64,000 bases of DNA. Source: Choanephora cucurbitarum. Its lineage: Eukaryota > Mucoromycota > Mucoromycetes > Mucorales > Choanephoraceae. A program made the position numbers and the translations under genes. The notes under the pieces are model-generated. The model did not search any database. It saw only the letters and a program-made list of their open reading frames with translations, and had not been told where the DNA came from. Positions 3,670 to 36,810 of the stretch are shown piece by piece (the first letter of the stretch is position 1; each line of letters starts with the position of its first letter). Location: NCBI GenBank assembly GCA_025331435.1, contig JAIWNI010000034.1, positions 62,001 to 126,000 of the forward strand. The letters are read 5' to 3'.

Positions 3670-4099
3670 CTGTGTTTGAAGACCTCTTTGATTTAAACCC
3701 TAAGGCAGAAGAAACTGAAGATCTAAAAGGGAGACAGAAAGCAGGACATCTGTCGCCCTGGAAGCAGTTGATTGTGATAGTTGGTAATAGAGGTTAGATG
3801 TTTGCACCAGAACTAAGAAATGCTTGTGCCATGATGACACTTTGGAAAAAAGATAACTATGCCCTCTATATAACAGTTAATGTTCCCAACAAAAGTAACA
3901 TGTCGCAAATCTGCGTCTATTGATTCCACAAACTTCAGCATTTATATCACTCATACAAATGAAAGGCAAGAAAAAAAAACATAGAATCATGAAAGGCGCA
4001 CTCCACTGCTTGAGCCTTGAATGCCAATCTGCCAGGAAAGGTAGTGGCGTAAATAGGCGTGACAAATTGTCTACTTTAGCTATGCCATTTCCGGGATAG
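3670..4099 (+). pseudogene. Fanzor (TnpB-like) C-terminal fossil
   Basis: A degenerate copy of the C-terminal nuclease region of a Fanzor-like protein, related to the longer copy at 31.9-36.1 kb. Reading the plus strand, WKQLIVIVGNRG corresponds to KSLLMMIGDRG of that copy. MMTLWKKDNYALYITVNV corresponds to YGGIWKQDQHARYMTVCI, and SQICVY then a stop then FHKLQ corresponds to SQTCVYCFNKL. KGALHCLSLECQSARKGSGV with NRRDKLSTLA corresponds to the second half of the zinc ribbon plus the RuvC-III segment RDKVSALAI. A stop replaces a zinc-ribbon cysteine, another follows GNRG, and a frameshift lies near 3985. It cannot encode a working protein. Confidence 0.75.
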
Positions 4100-5150
4100 C
4101 AATTTTGCTCTTCCAACAAAATCTCCTTGTTTCCTCAAGAGCCATTAATCGCTCCAACACCATTTTCAACAACAAAACAGCGTCTTTATCTACAAGAAGC
4201 AATGTGCTAGCTGCAAGTGAGGCGCGATTAGCGAAATAAGTAGTTTGTTTACTACATGCCAATTTTGTTAATCGTCTGAATAAACCGCTTTTTTTTTTTT
4301 AGCAATTCAATTTTCAATATGATGTCCAAGCTTATTTATGAGGTTCGAAATACAATTTATGGCGAACACCACGTTGCGAGTAGCAAGCTGATTTATGAGT
4401 AGCTTAATGAACAATACAGAGCAAAAATTTAGAATTGGAGATAGTTCCATCTCATGATCTTAGCGAATAGTTCTTGCAAAAACAAAATGCATAATTTTTG
4501 ATTGAACAAAGACTGGTTTGAGTCAATCAATTATCTCGACAATGTCTATTCAATTAGTAAATAAAAACTAATAATCCCTCTATACAAAATGAAGAGCAAC
4601 CCTAGTTCTCTTACTATGGATGGCTGATAATTTCTGAACACTGGGTTGGAACAGTTCAAAAATATCTAAATTCTATAGAATAGATTTCTTCAAGTTGAAT
4701 AATTGTAATTACTTATGAATGGTTTCTATTTGTTTTATATCAATGTCTTTAGAGTGGTGTTTTAGTAAGATTATATATTGCCTTTCAAAAACTTATTTTT
4801 TTTTTTTGCATAGAAGATAAAAGATATGACATATCTATTTAAGTTAGATAAAAGGGAGAGTATTTATAGTTAGTCAGAGAAAGAATTATCTAGTTGATTC
4901 ACCGCACATTATTACCTAAAAAAGGGATCAAGAGGTAGAGTGTTAGTATGCATACTCCTTTCTTTGTTCCTTACGAAGCAAAAAAAAAAAGCCAACATAG
5001 CAACAGGAAAAATAACGAGAGATAGAAAAAGAGGCAGAAAATAGTTAAGTAAGTAGGGCTTGAAATATTAAGCCAAGTTTTTTTTCTTTGTTTCCTTCTC
5101 TCTCTCTCTTTTCTTCTTTTCCTTTGCTTTCTTCATTGTATCAATGTCAA
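4100..5150. other. Gene-free stretch, kinase 5' region
   Basis: No convincing reading frame, RNA gene or repeat was found on either strand. The sequence is AT-rich. A pyrimidine-rich tract at about 5078-5130 runs up to the start of the downstream kinase gene and probably belongs to its promoter or 5' leader. Confidence 0.6.
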
Positions 5151-28046: not shown

Positions 28047-29582
28047 ATGGTTTTATTTAAGACGCTGTCTTTTGTCGCAGCTTATAGTTTGCTCTTCCAA
28101 TCTACAATATCAGTAGAGGCTATGCCCTTTAGACAAAGCCGTGCTCTTGTCAAGAAAGGTGCTCGATTGAATGGCAAATTTCTTCATATCACTGGTAAGA
28201 ATAATGAATTGGGTCGAGATGTTAGTTCAAAAGAGATGTTTATTGTTAAATTGCTAGATATCCATATTGATCCACTCTACAAAGAAGGTGCTGATCCAAC
28301 TAAACTGTGTCATACATTTGGCAAGGAGAAGTCAAAACAAAGTGGCAAATATGGTGCTCTAGGCACAGACTGTGACTCTCCCATCCCACTTGTCGATGCT
28401 ACCTTTAACTTCCTCAAGAAAGATATCGCTGATATCGATTTTATTATTTATACAGGAGACACAGTGCGACATGTAAGTATAATCTAAGTTTTAATTTGTG
28501 AAACTTACCATCTTTGATCAGGACCGCGATGATGATCTACCTAGAACAAAAGAAGAAGTCATTGAAGGCCATAAGTCAGTCATGAAATACTTTCGAGATG
28601 CCTATGATGTCAAATACACCCCTTATGTAAGTATACGCTTGAAACAAGAAAAGCATAAGACTAAACTTTCCTCAGGTCCCTACAATAGGCAACAACGATG
28701 CATTTGTCCATAATGACCTTGTCAAAAACGACAAAATCTTTGATCAACTAGAATCTATTTGGGAACCACTTGGCTTAAACTTGACAAGCGACTTTAGCAC
28801 AGGAGGCTACTTTGTTCAGGATGTCATTCAAGATCAACTCAGTATCATCAGTTTAAATTCTATGTATTTCTTTAAGAAGAATGATGAAGCTGCCAACTGT
28901 GATAACAGCAAGAGTAGTGGTGCCATGCAACTTAACTGGTTGGAAAATACACTCGAATATTATGCTAACAAAGACTCACATCGAGTATACATAATTGGTC
29001 ATATACCTCCTCTTAATGATGATGGTTCTAAACTCTTCAAGAAGTCATGTTATAAGAATTACCACAAGCTTCTCAGTAAATATGGAAAAATCATTGTTGG
29101 TCATTTCACTGGTCATACAAACGGTAAATATATCATTCTACACTTTCACTTAAATCATGCTTATGCTCATAATGAATATAGATGATAACTTAAATGCTAT
29201 CATTTCAAACAAAGACGATTCTGATATTGTCCTTGCTGGTGGAAGTGATATCAACGCAAACACTGCAAAAGATGTAGTTGTTGGCTTGTTTAATGCTCCC
29301 TCTGTCATTCCTGTCAATAACCCTGCTATTCGAGTTTATACTTATGAAACAGAAGGCAATGCATACCCTATTGGTACTATCCGCGATTGGGATCAATACT
29401 ATGTTGATTTAGAGAAGGCAAACAGTAATGGCAATGTTACTTATCAACTAGAGTACAAGGCTTCCGAACTATATAATGTAGATCATTTTGATGGTGAGGG
29501 TGTTGGACAAGCCTTGTTACATCTTGTCAATGACAAAAAATCTTCTCAATTGTATAACAAATATAAAACTGTTCTTGCTTAA
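28047..29582 (+). CDS. Secreted/vacuolar calcineurin-like metallophosphoesterase (endopolyphosphatase or acid sphingomyelinase-like)
   Basis: Two-metal phosphoesterase with an N-terminal signal peptide (MVLFKTLSFVAAYSLLFQST, cleaved near VEA). Exons are 28047-28194, 28258-28472, 28522-28626, 28676-29123 and 29182-29582 (438 aa). Metal-binding motifs appear in order: HITDIHIDP across intron 1, TGDTVRHD across intron 2, IGNND (the usual GNHD with Asn for His), IIGHIPP and GHFTGHTN. The segment DPLYKEGADPTKLCH and YGALGTDCDSPIPLVDATF match the Ppn1/ASM-like branch. Yeast Ppn1 is larger and membrane-anchored; no transmembrane segment besides the signal is seen here, so secretion is likely. The substrate (polyphosphate or a phosphodiester) is not settled by sequence. 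Confidence 0.85.
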
Positions 29583-29729
29583 TTTATGCAAAATTAACTT
29601 TCCTGCAAGCCACAAGTGACCTCTAATTCTAATTGACCTAATTTTTTGTGTCTGTGTGTGTGTTTAAACCTCATTGATTTTTTTTTGGTCCCTTTTATTT
29701 TTTTTTTCTTTATTGTATTCAAATTAGAG

Positions 29730-30855
29730 ATGTTGCGTACAGTGTATGTAATATAGATCGAGATCGCACCCATTCATACTAATCCACTTGCTTTTTGTAT
29801 CAAACAGTAAGCCTAAGAATGCTCGTGCTAAGCGTTTCTTGAAGAATCGTGAAGCAAAGGTCCACGAAAACCCTAAGAACAGTTTGATTGTTCGAGGTTC
29901 TACTACTAGTCAAGTAGTCAACGATGCTTTGAAGGATTTGGTAATGACCAGTCTGAATTTATCATCTGTTAGTGCTTTCTTACTTACTCGACTTTTTATT
30001 TGCTAGTATGCTTTGAAGCGCCCTAATGCTGTTCATTTCACAAAGAAGAACGAACTCAAGCCTTTCGAAGATGAAGAGAAGCTCGAATTCTTCTCCCAAA
30101 AGAACGACTCTGCTTTCGTTGTTGTCGGTACTCACTCTAAGAAGAGACCTCACAACTTGGTCTTTACTCGAATGTTTAATCACCAGGTCTTGGACATGTA
30201 TGAATTCGGTATTGAAAACCCTAAGTCCATGTCTTCTATTCCCGTAAATGCTTTTTCTCTCTTTTTCTTTTAGGCCTGTAGTTCTGACTCGATTTTCTTT
30301 TTCTTTGTATAGGGTCCCAAATGTTCTGTTGGCTTGAAGCCTTTGATGGTTTTCAACGGTGACCGTTTTGAATCTGATGAGACATACAAATACATGAAGA
30401 ACTATTTTTTAGATTTCTTCAACGGCGAAGAGGCCAGTGCTATCAACTTGGCTGGTTTGGAACATGTTGTCAGTTTGACGGCCACACCTGATGATCGTAT
30501 CTTATTCCGCACTTATTTGATCGAGATGAAGAAAAGTGGCTCAAAGACTCCTCGTGTGGAATTGGAAGAGATGGGTCCCAGCTATGACTTGAAGGTTAGA
30601 CGTACTACAACACCTAAGGCTGAACTTTGGAAGGCAGCCTGTAAGGTACCTAAGGAAGTTAAGCCTAAGAAGGTCAAGAACATTGAAAAGGATGAAATGG
30701 GTGATACATATGGTCGTGTTCACCTCGGTAAGCAAGATTTGAGCAAGCTCCAAACTAGAAAGATGAAGGGTTTGAAGAAAAGAGGTGCTGATGAAGATAA
30801 TGACGATGAGGGCTCAGCAAAGAAGCAAAAGGTTGATAGCAGTGATCAAGAGTAG
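29730..30855 (+). CDS. RPF2: Ribosome production factor 2 (Brix domain), Rpf2
   Basis: Nucleolar factor that, with Rrs1, loads the 5S RNP onto the pre-60S ribosome. Exons are 29730-29743, 29808-29940, 30007-30243 and 30313-30855 (308 aa). The first exon is 14 nt and gives MLRTVKPKNARAKRFLKNRE, aligning with the conserved Rpf2 start. The Brix domain covers about residues 28-235 (FVVVGTHSKKRPHNLVFTRM, GPKCSVGLKPLMVFNGDRFE, LEEMGPSYDLKVRR). A basic/acidic C-terminal tail follows (KMKGLKKRGADEDNDDEG, KKQKV). Slightly shorter than yeast Rpf2. Confidence 0.95.
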
Positions 30856-31892
30856 TTTTCTTTCTTTCTTTTTCCTCCATCCTTTACTCTCTTCTTCCTT
30901 TTATTTTCTTTTGTATTTTCTAGACATAATATCCTTACAACATCTGCACGTTTTCATACTATATATTTATACATAAGCATCTCAACCTATGTATTGAATG
31001 ATACAGCTCATTCCCTGTCTCTTTTTTCTGTAAAATAAACCACGCTAACATACAAGATTTTGTCAAAGGAGGGAGTTTCTTATGCGTGTTACCTTAACTG
31101 ATTCTCTTTGAGCCAAAAGGATGTTTCATAACTCCTGAGAGCAAAGACTGAGCAATCTGATTGCCTGGTGGTAAGATAGCCGCAAAACCTTTCTTGCTTA
31201 TAGAGGCATCACAGAGTATAGTTTTCTCATTTATCAAATATGCTCTATTTGAAAGGAACTATTGTACTATATGACCTAATCAACTCTCGTACATCCTCTT
31301 TTTGCCATCGCTTAGTCTTTGATTTTTTTTTACGAAAAACGGCTTTCAAGCATCAAGCCTTCCAAGCCAAGCATGATTTGTCTTCAACTATGATGAAGGC
31401 TGTGCTCTAAGTGACCAAGAAAAAATAGTTTTAGCAGTACTCATCAACAGCCTTAATACTAGCATGTATACAATGTCTAGTTTGTTGACTTGAACGAAAG
31501 GAATTCAGCAAGAATCGCAAGCACGGGCAAAATAAGGTCAAGAAGATCATCAACACAAGCTCGACTTTTGGTTTTATTGCTCCCCATTCGACGTTTCGGC
31601 CAAATAATAGTTTTGAAGACTATTTTATATCTAAGTTTGCCTTGAACAAAATAACTGCCAGTCAATTAGCTCAAGAAAACCCCATTGTGTATATTGTATG
31701 TCTTGGATAGATAAACAAAATACTCTCATTGTAGCTAAGTAATTCTTTGTTAATCAGATTACCAAAATGGAAGAGACTACTCTTCAGGATACAGTGCTTA
31801 CGGTCTGGCAAGACTGTCATGTCTGGGGGGGGAGAGAAAAGATTTAGTATTGTAAGACAGATAAAGTTTATGTAACACTTACATCTTGCTCA
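30856..31892. other. Intergenic stretch with a short retroelement-like fragment
   Basis: Mostly uninformative AT-rich DNA. On the minus strand, about 31265-31100, a coherent 50-codon piece reads YLINEKTILCDASISKKGFA followed by AILPPGNQIAQSLL. The CDAS segment is reminiscent of RNase H-type domains of retroelements. No flanking structure supports a full element. Confidence 0.3.
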
Positions 31893-34800
31893 TCACGCTT
31901 CACGTGCAGACGATACACCACTTCTTGTACAGAAGGATGCTGTTCTGCGATTGAAATCAGTGTTGGAGTGACTGATGGTTCTTGAAAATACAGGGAGAGT
32001 TTCTTGGAAGAGCAAAGTTGTTATCCCAGAAATAGTAATAGCTAGGGCAGACACTTTATCTCTGGAGGTAGTGTTGCGACCGTGACGAGCAGAAGGGCAC
32101 TTGGAATTATAGCAGATAAAGGCACCTTTGATTTTTCTATAAGTTATTTTGTCTTGTTTGATAACGCGCAATCTTGCATGAGTGAGCTTGTTAAAGCAAT
32201 ACACACAAGTCTGGGAAGTATAGTTTTCATTTGTGATACAAACAGTCATATACCTTGCATGCTGATCTTGCTTCCAAATACCACCATATCTAATATGTCC
32301 TCTAATTCTGGAACCTATCCTAAAGCCACGATCACCAATCATCATCAACAGGCTCTTTCTTTGTGCTTCTTTCCCTTTCTTCTTGACATCTTTCTTTTTT
32401 GAATTAGGATTCATCAATTCCTTTTCGCGAGAGCAAAGGCGGTCCTTGATTTTTTTTTGGTAAAGTATTCCTGCTTAATGGCCTGTTTAGATCTTTGTGG
32501 AGAATCATAAAAGTTCCTGACTATCTGTCTATTGGCTTGCAAAAATCGGTAGTTTGTCTGGATTGCTTCTACGGAACTTGCATTGGATATACTTTTTTCG
32601 GACAACACCTTCTCAATTTGAATCAAATTCACATCATTCGCTTTTAAAGCAGCAAGCTTGTGTCTGTAGTTCAAGTTTTGACTTCCAAGGTCAATATCTT
32701 CAGCATTGATGACAGTGGACAATGGCAAAGGCTGAAATTCTTCTTCTTGTTCTTCAGTAGTAGTCAAAGTAGAAAACCTGTTGTAGAGCTTCAGATGGTA
32801 AACGTATTTTTGAATGGAAATTGGTACTGATTCAGTCATTTTAACAACACCATTGTCTGTGCCGGAGAAGGTGAAATTTTTAGCAATGGTAGCAGCGTCA
32901 CCCATCAGTTCCATATCTTCAGCTTTAGCAATTGTAGGCTGGCCTGTAATCTGCTGCAGTGCTTTGGTTTGTCTGGGCGCTTTTTGATCTCTTCTTGTCA
33001 AATTTAATGCTCTTCTGCGGATATACAGCTGGTATCGCTGGTCTGCCAGTTCAGACTTGACTTGTTGAATAGCCAGAAACAACCTAATTCTCTCAGCCTT
33101 CGACCCATCAATGTACACTTTGATCTCAACTCTAGCAGCAGCAATCAACTCTTCATCGTTTTTGGCACGCGGACGTCGGATACGAGACTGTATAGTTCTT
33201 ACAATGTCTGAAATTTGTGTCTGAACACCAGTAATGCATTCACCGATTTGAGGACAACACACACCTGCCTCTTCTTCAGAATCACTACCTTGCACAACAG
33301 CAACTTCAGGCTCAAGATTAAGTGGGGTTTTCCAGCCTTGCTTGGCAGTTTTGATCTGCAAATCAAAATCTTGATCGCTGAATTCTTTGAAACTATCTTT
33401 CAACTGGTTTGACAAGCGGTTGGTGTTCACCAAGAGTCCATCAATTTCTTGTATCAAGGTTTCATTGTCTTTGTCACGCTCATTGAGAATATCTTGCCAG
33501 GTTGATTCAGGAATGTTGTACTGACGCTTCTGGCCTGTTACATCAGCAGTCTGCTGCGTGGACGCTTTTTCTTTGATTCCAAGGATTCTGACATACTTTC
33601 CACCAGGCAGCAAATGAAGATGATGAGCAAAAATCAGTTTACGGTTTCTGCATAACTGTCGTATCCTATTGATCCTGACGAGCATCTTACAAAGTGCAGC
33701 GTACCGTACCATAATGAAGGTCAACAAAATTAACCAGAGCGCAGCGTAGGTGCTAATTTTATTACCGCAATGGAGATGCGGTTTTTAATATGCTCGTTGA
33801 TTCTGAAAAAGACATTGAAGACAGCATCTTTATGATTGATATATTCCAAAGGGCCCTAATGACTCTGTTGTCATAGCCAAAGAATGTCATTTTGTTGTCA
33901 CCATGCTCGCAGAATGTCTTGAATAACAAAGGTGTATCCAGTCTAAAGGACTTTTGCGTTGCAGTAGGCATTGGGCAGATTTTACGACAGAACTTAGCAT
34001 AGCCAGCACAGCGCAGCAAATCATTCGTAAGGATTACAAAAGGTAGCTGGTAACCAATATGAGAGTAGTTTGTCTTTGAAGGGATGTAAGGTTTTAAGCT
34101 TCGTAGTATAAACAAACATACTTCTGTTTCCTTCTCATTCAAGTCAGAGCGCAGATCTTCCAAGTCTTGTTCGTTAGGCAAATCTTCATCACGCAACAGC
34201 AAGCTCTTGATAAAGCCCTTTAAGCCATTCAACCTATTTCTAGGAGCATCATCATCAGCATCTTTTAAAGCATCTTCTTCTTCGACAACATCATTTTCAT
34301 TCATGCTTGCGTAGTCTTCTGGTACAGCTGGCGGAATAGTGTGTGTCTCTCCTGTCATGAGTGGTTGGAAAGTAACGGGCTTCGGATCGCTTTGGGAATT
34401 CACTGGCGCTTTCGCTTTTCCTTCGTACGGCTGTGTGGGAATGTCTATCTCATGTGACCAGTTAGTAGCATACTGGGACCAGCCTCAGCAGAAACAATAG
34501 AGGGATGTTGGCTGGCAGGGATTTTTCTTGGACGCTCAGAACCTTCGGCGACATCAGGATCAGAAGGTTGTTTCCTCTTGGTAGAAGCAGTCTTTGGTTC
34601 CTATTGAGAATGGTATAATAGACATAGACGAGTGACTGATTTCCCGTTGATTTTAGACATACATGCCTTAGTTTCTAGAGCTTTTGTGTATGTTGCGATA
34701 CGTTTCTCACTTTTTTGGGCTCGAGCTTCCCATTTTTGCTTCGTATCCGCAGATGATGATCTGTTTGATTTTTGTCTGTATTTTGCAAGCCGGTAACGTT

Positions 34801-36074
34801 CTTTGCGGACTATCAACCTTCTTCTGCTTTGATGGAGCAGCAGAAACCAATTGGTGGGATGATCTGCTTCTGTCTTACTTCCTTTTGCAGCTTTGTCTTT
34901 TCTTTCTTTAGAGGCATTTTTCATAGACTTGATAAATTCTTGATGCTTTCTTTCTCTTGAAGGAGCCAAATGAATACGTAGCAGCACTAACAAGAGCTTG
35001 TCCAGAAGAATGTTGTTCATCTTGTTATCACCCCACATGACAGATAGATTGGTAATATAGTTAGTCAATGCAGACTCGTAGCAGGCCATATGAAGAGTGC
35101 TTTTTGGTTGGATGAACTGGTTGACTGACTCAGAAATGGCTTCCATTAACAGGGTTCTCAAAGGATACTCTGTTTTCGTCTTTGTTTGCAAGCCACGAAC
35201 ACCATAAAAGCCAGACTTCAAAAAATGAACATGTTGGTCAGTGAAGAGAAAAGGGATGTCATTGGCATCAGGAGAGGCAGAAAAATCAAGGTATCTTGTA
35301 ATTGAAAGTTATTTGGGAAGATACTTTGTATTTGAAAGCCATTCAATCTATCAAATATTGATTTTTCATTGCGAACAGCAAAAGTATAATCTCGGAAGCA
35401 GGACATTATCATGAACATGATCACTTGGAAGTCACTGATAAAATTGGAGGTCTGGGGCAGTAGTTCAGCGAGCCTCGTATCAAAGAGTTGTCTAACTTCA
35501 GGAGCAAGATCATCACGTATCAACGAGGAAAAATACGCAGTACAGACTTCAAAATATTCTTCGGCAGCAACAAAGGAAGCAAGTTCAGTAGAGAGCTCTT
35601 CTGAAGAAGGTTCAATGGCCTGAGTAGAACTAGTTGCTTCAGTTGTAGTATTGCTTACAGAATCTAAAATGACATCAAAATTTTGTTGGACATATTCTCT
35701 CCAAATAACGATTGCTCGAGACACTGCATTATCATTTAGAAATCTGTTTGCAGATTCTCGCGATTCGAGGTTGGTATATTTATCCATATCAGCATATAGT
35801 CCTTTTAGAATTTGATCAGCAAGAGTTTTTGCTTTAAGAGCAGAGTAGTTTGGCTTCTTTTTGGTTTTTTTTCACGTATAATGTTATTTCGTAGTTTGGC
35901 TCGAGCTACGATATAAAAAAGGTCATGGATTTTTTCTAGAGACATATCGGATGCACGTCTTTTGCCAGGAGTTATGGGAGATGGTTGCTGTTACACATTG
36001 ACAGACAACTGTGACACAGGAGTATAAGGACCGCTCCGATAGAATGAATCTTGTAGAGCCCTGCGGTAGGACAT
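31893..36074 (-). pseudogene. Broken Fanzor-like (eukaryotic TnpB-related) gene
   Basis: A long gene relic whose C-terminal third carries RuvC/zinc-ribbon nuclease features of Fanzor proteins. From the likely start (36074, MSYRRALQDSFYRSGPY) the frame passes through acidic and helical regions of unknown function. It then reaches NFTFSGTDNGVVKMTESVPI (RuvC-I type D in GTDNG), MMIGDRGFRIGSRIRGHIRY, a zinc ribbon SQTCVYCF with ICYNSKCP, and SRDKVSALAI (RuvC-III type D). Lesions include a TAA at 35991-35993. Frame shifts lie near 35865 (A-run), 35285 (T-run), 34478 (C-run), 33850, 33740 and 32415, the last separating the two nuclease halves. An out-of-phase donor lies near 34655. The largest open piece is 33727-32414. 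That everything from 36074 belongs to one gene is inference; the nuclease part is well supported. The catalytic RuvC-II acid is not assigned. Confidence 0.75.
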
Positions 36075-36269
36075 TGCCTCAGAGACGTTAGACCTATTCA
36101 TAGTATGTTAGTGGCCAGAAACGACAAATTCGTTTCTAATTGAGTATGCTCTAATAAGAGTATTGAGAGATTGTCAATCGATGTTGTTGGGGATGTTAGG
36201 AAGTGCTTCTGAGGCTTTGCAAAATTGATCTGTAACCATTGTTATGTCAAAGAGAAAAAGGGGTCATAA

Positions 36270-36810
36270 TTATAAAAAAGAATAGGGTCATGGTATAAGA
36301 CTTTTTCCAACGCCAGGGATTTGTAATCGTATACGATACCGTTGTTCTGGAATGTAAGTATTTCTTTGATGCTTCGTGGATGGGGACTACCACATATGCA
36401 TCTTTCAAGTTCAGTTTCCATATGTAATCGTTCTCTTCCACTATGTCCCTGAGAGCTGAAACTACTTCCATCTTGAAGCGTTGTACATGTAGGAATTTGT
36501 TCAACTCTTGACAGTCCAAAATAGGACGTCTCTTCGTTTCCTCCTGTATCGTAAAGAAATTCGATAGGTAACCTGTTTGTTGATTTGATGATTTCTCTAT
36601 AATGCCTGCTGTCAAGAATTGATCTACCGCTCTCAGATCTTCTTCTGACAGCTTCAACTTGTACTGTCTCCAAGGTTGAGGGGTCGAGGCAAATTGTAAT
36701 TGGTATTCTTTCTCTACTACCGAAAGAGACTAATTGTGACAGGTAATCTTCCTCCAGTCGTGTAAGAACCTTTTCAGTCTCTCACCAGGAAGGAATATAC
36801 CTTGTTGATG
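36270..36810 (-). mobile_element. DIRS-type retrotransposon reverse transcriptase fragment
   Basis: A degenerate piece of reverse transcriptase. Reading the minus strand, GERLKRFLHDWRKITCHN is followed by a stop, then ALRDIVEENDYIWKLNLKDA, YVVVPIHEASKKYL and, after a frameshift, TFQNNGIVYDYKSLAL. RRPILDCQELNKFL and KLNLKDAYVVVPI match RT motifs of DIRS/Ngaro elements. The catalytic YxDD motif, RNase H, tyrosine recombinase and terminal repeats are not present. The piece lies just upstream of the Fanzor-like gene start, on the same strand. Confidence 0.75.

Follow-up and report, generated by a model that had tools for sequence, protein, structure and literature searches.

The window analysed here is a 64,000-nucleotide stretch of the Choanephora cucurbitarum genome (contig JAIWNI010000034.1, positions 62,001 to 126,000), and its minus strand holds the relic of a broken Fanzor1-like gene at 31893..36101, whose pieces run in several frames from an ATG at 36101 to a stop at 31893. 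The presumed first exon (34667..36101, minus strand), an N-terminal extension of about 478 codons with no recognised domain, corresponds to part of gene model P0005 and is matched in part by the Helicostylum protein P0012. It is followed by a 66-nt intron-like stretch (34601..34666, minus strand). Further downstream on the same strand, frames and alignment place the long helices and the RuvC-I motif GTDNG at 32417..33727, and a second frame at 31896..32417 carries the RuvC-II region (GDRG), the alternative glutamate (ENYTSQTC), the TNB zinc ribbon and RuvC-III (SRDKVSALAI). Subtracting the 66 nt and a 120-bp stretch from the distance between ATG and stop gives a gene of about 1,340 codons, a length that depends on the intron reading and predicted gene models. 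In our interpretation, with a probability of roughly 0.87, the relic is what remains of a DNA transposon that carried a gene for a very large RNA-guided nuclease of the Fanzor1 type; this copy is dead and truncated on the left.

The original prediction of a Fanzor-like nuclease was based on the order of motifs in the C-terminal part, and between 33727 and 31893 the long minus-strand frames indeed carry GTDNG, ENYTSQTCVYC...CYNSKC and SRDKVSALAI in this order, the second cysteine pair of the zinc ribbon being CxxxxC. The Fanzor/TnpB motif of Bao and Jurka (PMC3627910) reads D-x(125,275)-[TS][TS]xx-[C4 zinc finger]-x(5,50)-RD; the distance from D to TS was 212, 204 and 205 residues in P0001, P0007 and P0008, followed by TSQTC and RD. 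As a mark of Fanzor1 we used a conserved glycine and glutamate 36 residues apart (G500/E536), and the spacing was 36 residues in all three proteins measured. In the window copy the alternative glutamate of RuvC-II, a feature described in PMC10711439 that sets Fanzor apart from ordinary TnpB, also stands six residues ahead of the zinc ribbon. A DPG at RuvC-I, typical of Fanzor and reported to occur "near exclusively", lies outside the definition of Bao and Jurka. In its place we found DNG in 11 of 14 alignment rows, the remaining three (P0009, P0010 and window:31896-32417) not carrying this stretch; the decayed copy C319 reads NNG.

Structure comparison pointed to the same family. For the C-terminal half a RuvC-TNB fold was predicted whose nearest counterpart is Fanzor1, and its D, E and D residues are arranged as in Fanzor: the top seven Foldseek matches were all Fanzor1 proteins and Cas12 relatives came next, with a margin over the Cas12 rows that was clear for SpuFz and narrow for PpFz and GtFz. 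The ordered motif, the spacing and this modelled fold together argue for a Fanzor-like RNA-guided nuclease. The proposed profile check, in contrast, gave no TnpB/Fanzor model over its cut-off. PF07282 (Cas12f1-like TNB) reached 12.9 bits, below the curated cut-off of 26.3, and was listed for 4 of 13 family members, with a best E-value of 0.036 at a limit of 1. Across the fungus's own genome a single PF07282 match was listed, in a different decayed Fanzor-like stretch, L001 (G000:C299:138064-138279; E = 3.1e-4, also below the curated cut-off).

The C. cucurbitarum assembly searched comprises 33.4 Mb in 357 contigs. In it the C-terminal piece gave 137 match rows, counting itself and with some relics giving several rows, and database searches returned 38 distinct related proteins whose named sources were Choanephora and other Mucorales; the Fanzor-like gene is therefore not a product of chance. 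Among viral contigs, 17 pattern matches included no relative of the family. A DNA query spanning 31600-36400 gave at least 52 genome match rows including itself (40 of 134 candidates scored), and joining rows by place yielded eight sister stretches (C336, C313, C60, C257, two in C212, C319 and C347) that match the window copy at 86-97%. The relic is thus one member of a dispersed multicopy family. The window holds another relic of this family at 3726-4232 (plus strand), which has decayed further and is represented by the rows C268:65726-66224 with the C-terminal piece as query and C268:66061-66232, at 75% DNA identity, with the 3' end as query. The relics in C135, C318 and C322 have identical match scores, which suggests segmental duplication.

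The sister copies also set the limits of the element. The original prediction had placed the gene at 36074..31893; the location stands and the exact limits do not, as DNA matches to the sisters run from 36114 to 31807, giving a decayed, left-truncated transposon at 31807..36114 (minus strand). Its right end is exact: the terminus ...GACATGACAGT[C/T]TTGCC, which corresponds to window position 31807, is common to the window, C336, C60, C257, C212a and C347, with C319 stopping seven bases short and C313 and C212b cut before it. The left stop at 36114 falls immediately upstream of the ATG. Beyond it lie about 0.6 kb more in C336 and about 1.0 kb more in C313, up to a left end GGC[A/G]GGG[C/T]TGCTGTGTCTGGGGG, a type also borne by C212b; C319 shares about 0.2-0.3 kb upstream.

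The right terminal repeat GACATGACAGTCTTGCC (31807..31823, minus strand) occurs at 17 genome places when one mismatch is allowed. For the left 31-mer, allowing three mismatches, there are 10 such places; the reversed controls gave none in either case. With one end reversed, about 17 of 23 bases agree by eye between left and right, and no left end identical to the right repeat, allowing up to four substitutions, was found in the copies examined. Among the seven elements with both ends, exact 8-bp direct repeats flank C299, C12 and C342, and repeats matching at 7 of 8 positions flank C316, C4 and C325 (the last was judged by eye because its right end had diverged too far for the script); C336 has both ends and no flanking direct repeat. 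Elements of this family thus end in imperfect terminal inverted repeats (TIRs), mostly between 8-bp direct repeats. The hallmarks of a hAT carrier are an 8-bp duplication, a hAT transposase and TIRs. The duplications were found here; no transposase was seen in the few loci inspected by eye. In C342, coding-strand frames of at least 60 residues comprised the Fanzor-like protein and short unassigned frames, with no transposase recognised by eye. As candidates for an autonomous partner, the loci C113:226515 and C292:316568, each with a geneless end, were compared with five family proteins; neither matched, and inspection by eye revealed no transposase. Beside C292 lies a long helicase-like frame that looks Helitron-like by eye.

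The window copy can no longer make the protein. One of its breaks is a 120-bp stretch at 33678..33797, an insert resembling a miniature inverted-repeat transposable element with ACGAGCAT inverted ends and a duplication of about 9-10 bp; it is absent from all six sisters that span the site and has relatives at C310, C94 and C279. The apparent stop TAG at 34601 forms the final three bases of the intron-like stretch, and another in-frame stop lies near 35.99 kb. The frame breaks had also been ascribed mostly to single-base changes in homopolymer runs. Compared with three sisters in the 5' block and five in the 3' block (C60, C319 and C347, which contain part of the 5' block, and C319 and C347, which contain part of the 3' block, were omitted), the window copy has three private indels, of which two change the frame and only one sits in a homopolymer of four or more. 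Since the other frame changes are not private by this test, the homopolymer pattern was not borne out for this copy. Sister C60 (L035, L043, L045) carries an insert of about 0.9 kb within the same gene, where about 8 bp of flanking sequence aligns twice.

These observations bear on three alternative explanations. The missing profile match might mean that the protein, perhaps another transposase, belongs to an unrelated family with a zinc ribbon or RNase-H fold and came to resemble Fanzor by convergence; we regard this as very improbable, given that the complete motif in its order agrees with Fanzor1, as does the spacing of 36 residues, and that Fanzor1 proteins and then Cas12 relatives head the structural matches. 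It is harder still to credit that the breaks are assembly errors and that the copy is intact in the living fungus. Although one private break does sit in a homopolymer run, an insert with its duplication and a truncated left end are not base-call errors, and all nine stretches (the window copy and its eight sisters) are interrupted, the longest stop-free frame being 590 residues. An explanation that deserves more weight, although still unlikely, is that the 478 or so codons upstream form a gene of their own, distinct from that of the Fanzor core within one element, with TAG 34601 as its true stop. The 66 nt are a multiple of three and, in the window copy as in several of its sisters, stay open as far as the TAG, and P0007, P0008 and the Rhizopus protein P0014 start downstream of this stretch. 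However, a purpose-made pattern found the intron-like stretch in seven of nine copies, C257 and C212a not holding the region. Six copies read G[T/C]ATGT...CAATAG, with a GC donor site in the window copy and C212b, and in C336 a 62-nt form with a variant start shifts the readthrough frame and leaves the spliced frame unchanged. The predicted gene model P0005 of C336 skips the stretch and joins both parts, and the single model P0012 from Helicostylum likewise matches both, which supports a single gene interrupted by an intron.

The region upstream of the core agrees with the earlier description of possibly more than 600 codons without a recognised domain: over 600 codons can be read there, back to the ATG at 36101, and none of the five gene pieces of the window copy matched a Pfam or NCBIfam model at cut-off. 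For the first 478 codons or so, a 421-residue frame of a sister gave no PDB match. Part of the extension also occurs in another subfamily (C316), at 32% over 110 residues and with identities of 0.51, 0.59 and 0.35 at the three codon positions, and part is matched in P0012 (33.5% over 167 residues), as would be expected if it has been kept as protein.

We also analyzed the 3' end of the element, where the end of the coding region and the 3' tail up to the right end form a candidate omegaRNA scaffold (31807..32064, minus strand). If this copy made a guide, its position suggests that it would come from the flank at 31787..31806 (minus strand). An alignment of 16 copies, which omits C4, C47, C319 and the geneless end C113:226515, is strongly alike over its final 250 columns or so, and the 254-nt 3' end, whole or in part, gave at least 40 genome match rows including itself (40 of 46 candidates scored). 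Position and homology make this stretch a plausible omegaRNA scaffold; Rfam gave no matches in the window. In the named helices 98.3% of cells are paired, compared with 37-44% when slid, although they were derived from the same alignment. One synonymous position of the coding region and one position beyond the stop combine as C-G, G-U or G-C in 15 of 16 copies. A 3' intron was considered as well, as the tail reads GTAAGT...TACTAAAT...pyrimidines...CAG before the right repeat; because the AG is present there in only 9 of 16 copies, a hairpin with a variable pyrimidine run was preferred.

Between C60 and C112, amino-acid identity rises from 47% before RuvC-III to 82% after it, and fourfold-site agreement from 8/26 to 18/22. 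When three window-type copies were compared with six others, Fisher p-values were below 0.05 in 11 of 18 pairs and above in seven, the pairs not being independent; the significant ones comprised all nine with C112, C113 or C299 and two of three with C235. DNA identity was likewise higher after RuvC-III than before in 39 of 45 non-independent pairs of 10 loci (six of the 16 given had no usable segment), and this held also for pairs outside the two main subfamilies. Several results weigh against selection on a guide scaffold. No fourfold excess after RuvC-III was found in C112-C235 (19/26 before, 5/10 after), C112-C288 (12/23, 3/7), C235-C288 (4/11, 1/5) or C288-C75 (93/94, 19/19), folding energies were ordinary (z = -1.10 and +0.93), and a double change is seen at just one paired position. 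C135, in which a window-type zinc-ribbon part is joined to a different 3' end, agrees with C336 and C60 at 0.91-0.92 before RuvC-III and at 0.71-0.72 after it, and C319 looks hybrid by eye. Copies thus appear to have exchanged 3' ends, from which the strongest before/after contrast may stem, and the DNA-identity check including C135 weakens a plain claim of nucleotide constraint. We see an even chance that the likeness of 3' ends between subfamilies reflects such exchange, or ends bound by a transposase, and not selection on a guide scaffold; what speaks for the scaffold is the greater likeness after RuvC-III in most pairs, even outside the main subfamilies, together with the linked coding and past-stop pair.

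Taken together, the family is one of transposons with a Fanzor1-type nuclease core whose catalytic residues are in place, cleavage itself being predicted. By analogy with established work on TnpB and Fanzor, the 3' end of an element would be transcribed as omegaRNA, with a scaffold that ends at the right terminus and a guide from the flanking DNA. The guided protein might then cut matching DNA, such as a site that has just lost the element or an allele that lacks it, and the element would be copied back during repair, a model already put forward for TnpB and Fanzor; guide uptake, cutting and persistence of the element are all inferred from that work. A transposase supplied in trans would move the element. 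A more elaborate and doubtful idea is that these proteins of about 1,300 residues form a separate Mucorales Fanzor1 lineage marked by the DNG motif, in which the N-terminal module adds a second activity, for example binding transposon ends or bringing in the transposase that acts in trans, and a single protein would thereby link guided cutting to transposition, and in which 3' ends with the guide-RNA scaffold are swapped as a module.

In the neighbourhood of the relic, the truncated left end adjoins a repeat of about 180 bp (36116-36297) with ten other genome rows at 85-91%, and a frame at 36247-36657 (minus strand) resembles, by eye only, a reverse-transcriptase fragment of the DIRS/Ngaro kind. 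Host-like genes adjoin at 29157-30855 (plus strand), with a match to the C-terminal part of acid sphingomyelinase and a Brix-domain gene. A scan of the window for tRNA and tmRNA with the bacterial code found none.

In the literature covered on Fanzor and on Mucorales and Choanephora transposable elements (the latter by title), we found no description of this family and make no wider claim. Reported Fanzor1 lengths reach about 800 residues (PMC10711439), with most proteins at 600-700 residues (PMC11423790). The present family would be about twice the usual Fanzor1 size and falls below the TNB profile cut-off; its members, annotated as hypothetical proteins, are found in several genera of the Mucorales. 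Should the large form be confirmed, surveys based on profiles may undercount eukaryotic RNA-guided nucleases, and the N-terminal region would be a concrete place to seek what Fanzor does for its transposon.

Among known systems, SpuFz1 of Spizellomyces punctatus (Fanzor1; PDB 8gkh, 9cey) shares about 15% identity and is a shorter protein: the RuvC part that can be aligned starts near residue 364 in SpuFz1 and 465 in PpFz, compared with about codon 1,000, by arithmetic, in the Choanephora relic. In PpFz1 of Parasitella parasitica (PDB 9cf0, 9cf1) the extra sequence described in PMC11423790 is an insertion of about 100 residues inside RuvC, unlike the N-terminal extra of several hundred residues in the Choanephora family. 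MCi-2 of Mucor circinelloides, as outlined in PMC3627910, likewise has a common Fanzor-coding 3' region and differing upstream parts, but it has no recognisable TIRs and is flanked by 11-12-bp duplications. ROr-4, PBl-3 and MCi-4 (from Rhizopus, Phycomyces and Mucor), as described in the same source, are likewise Fanzor1 DNA transposons of related fungi with TIRs and no transposase. They have MuDr-type TIRs and 9-bp duplications, whereas the repeats found here, in six of seven elements, are of 8 bp, exact or matching at seven positions.
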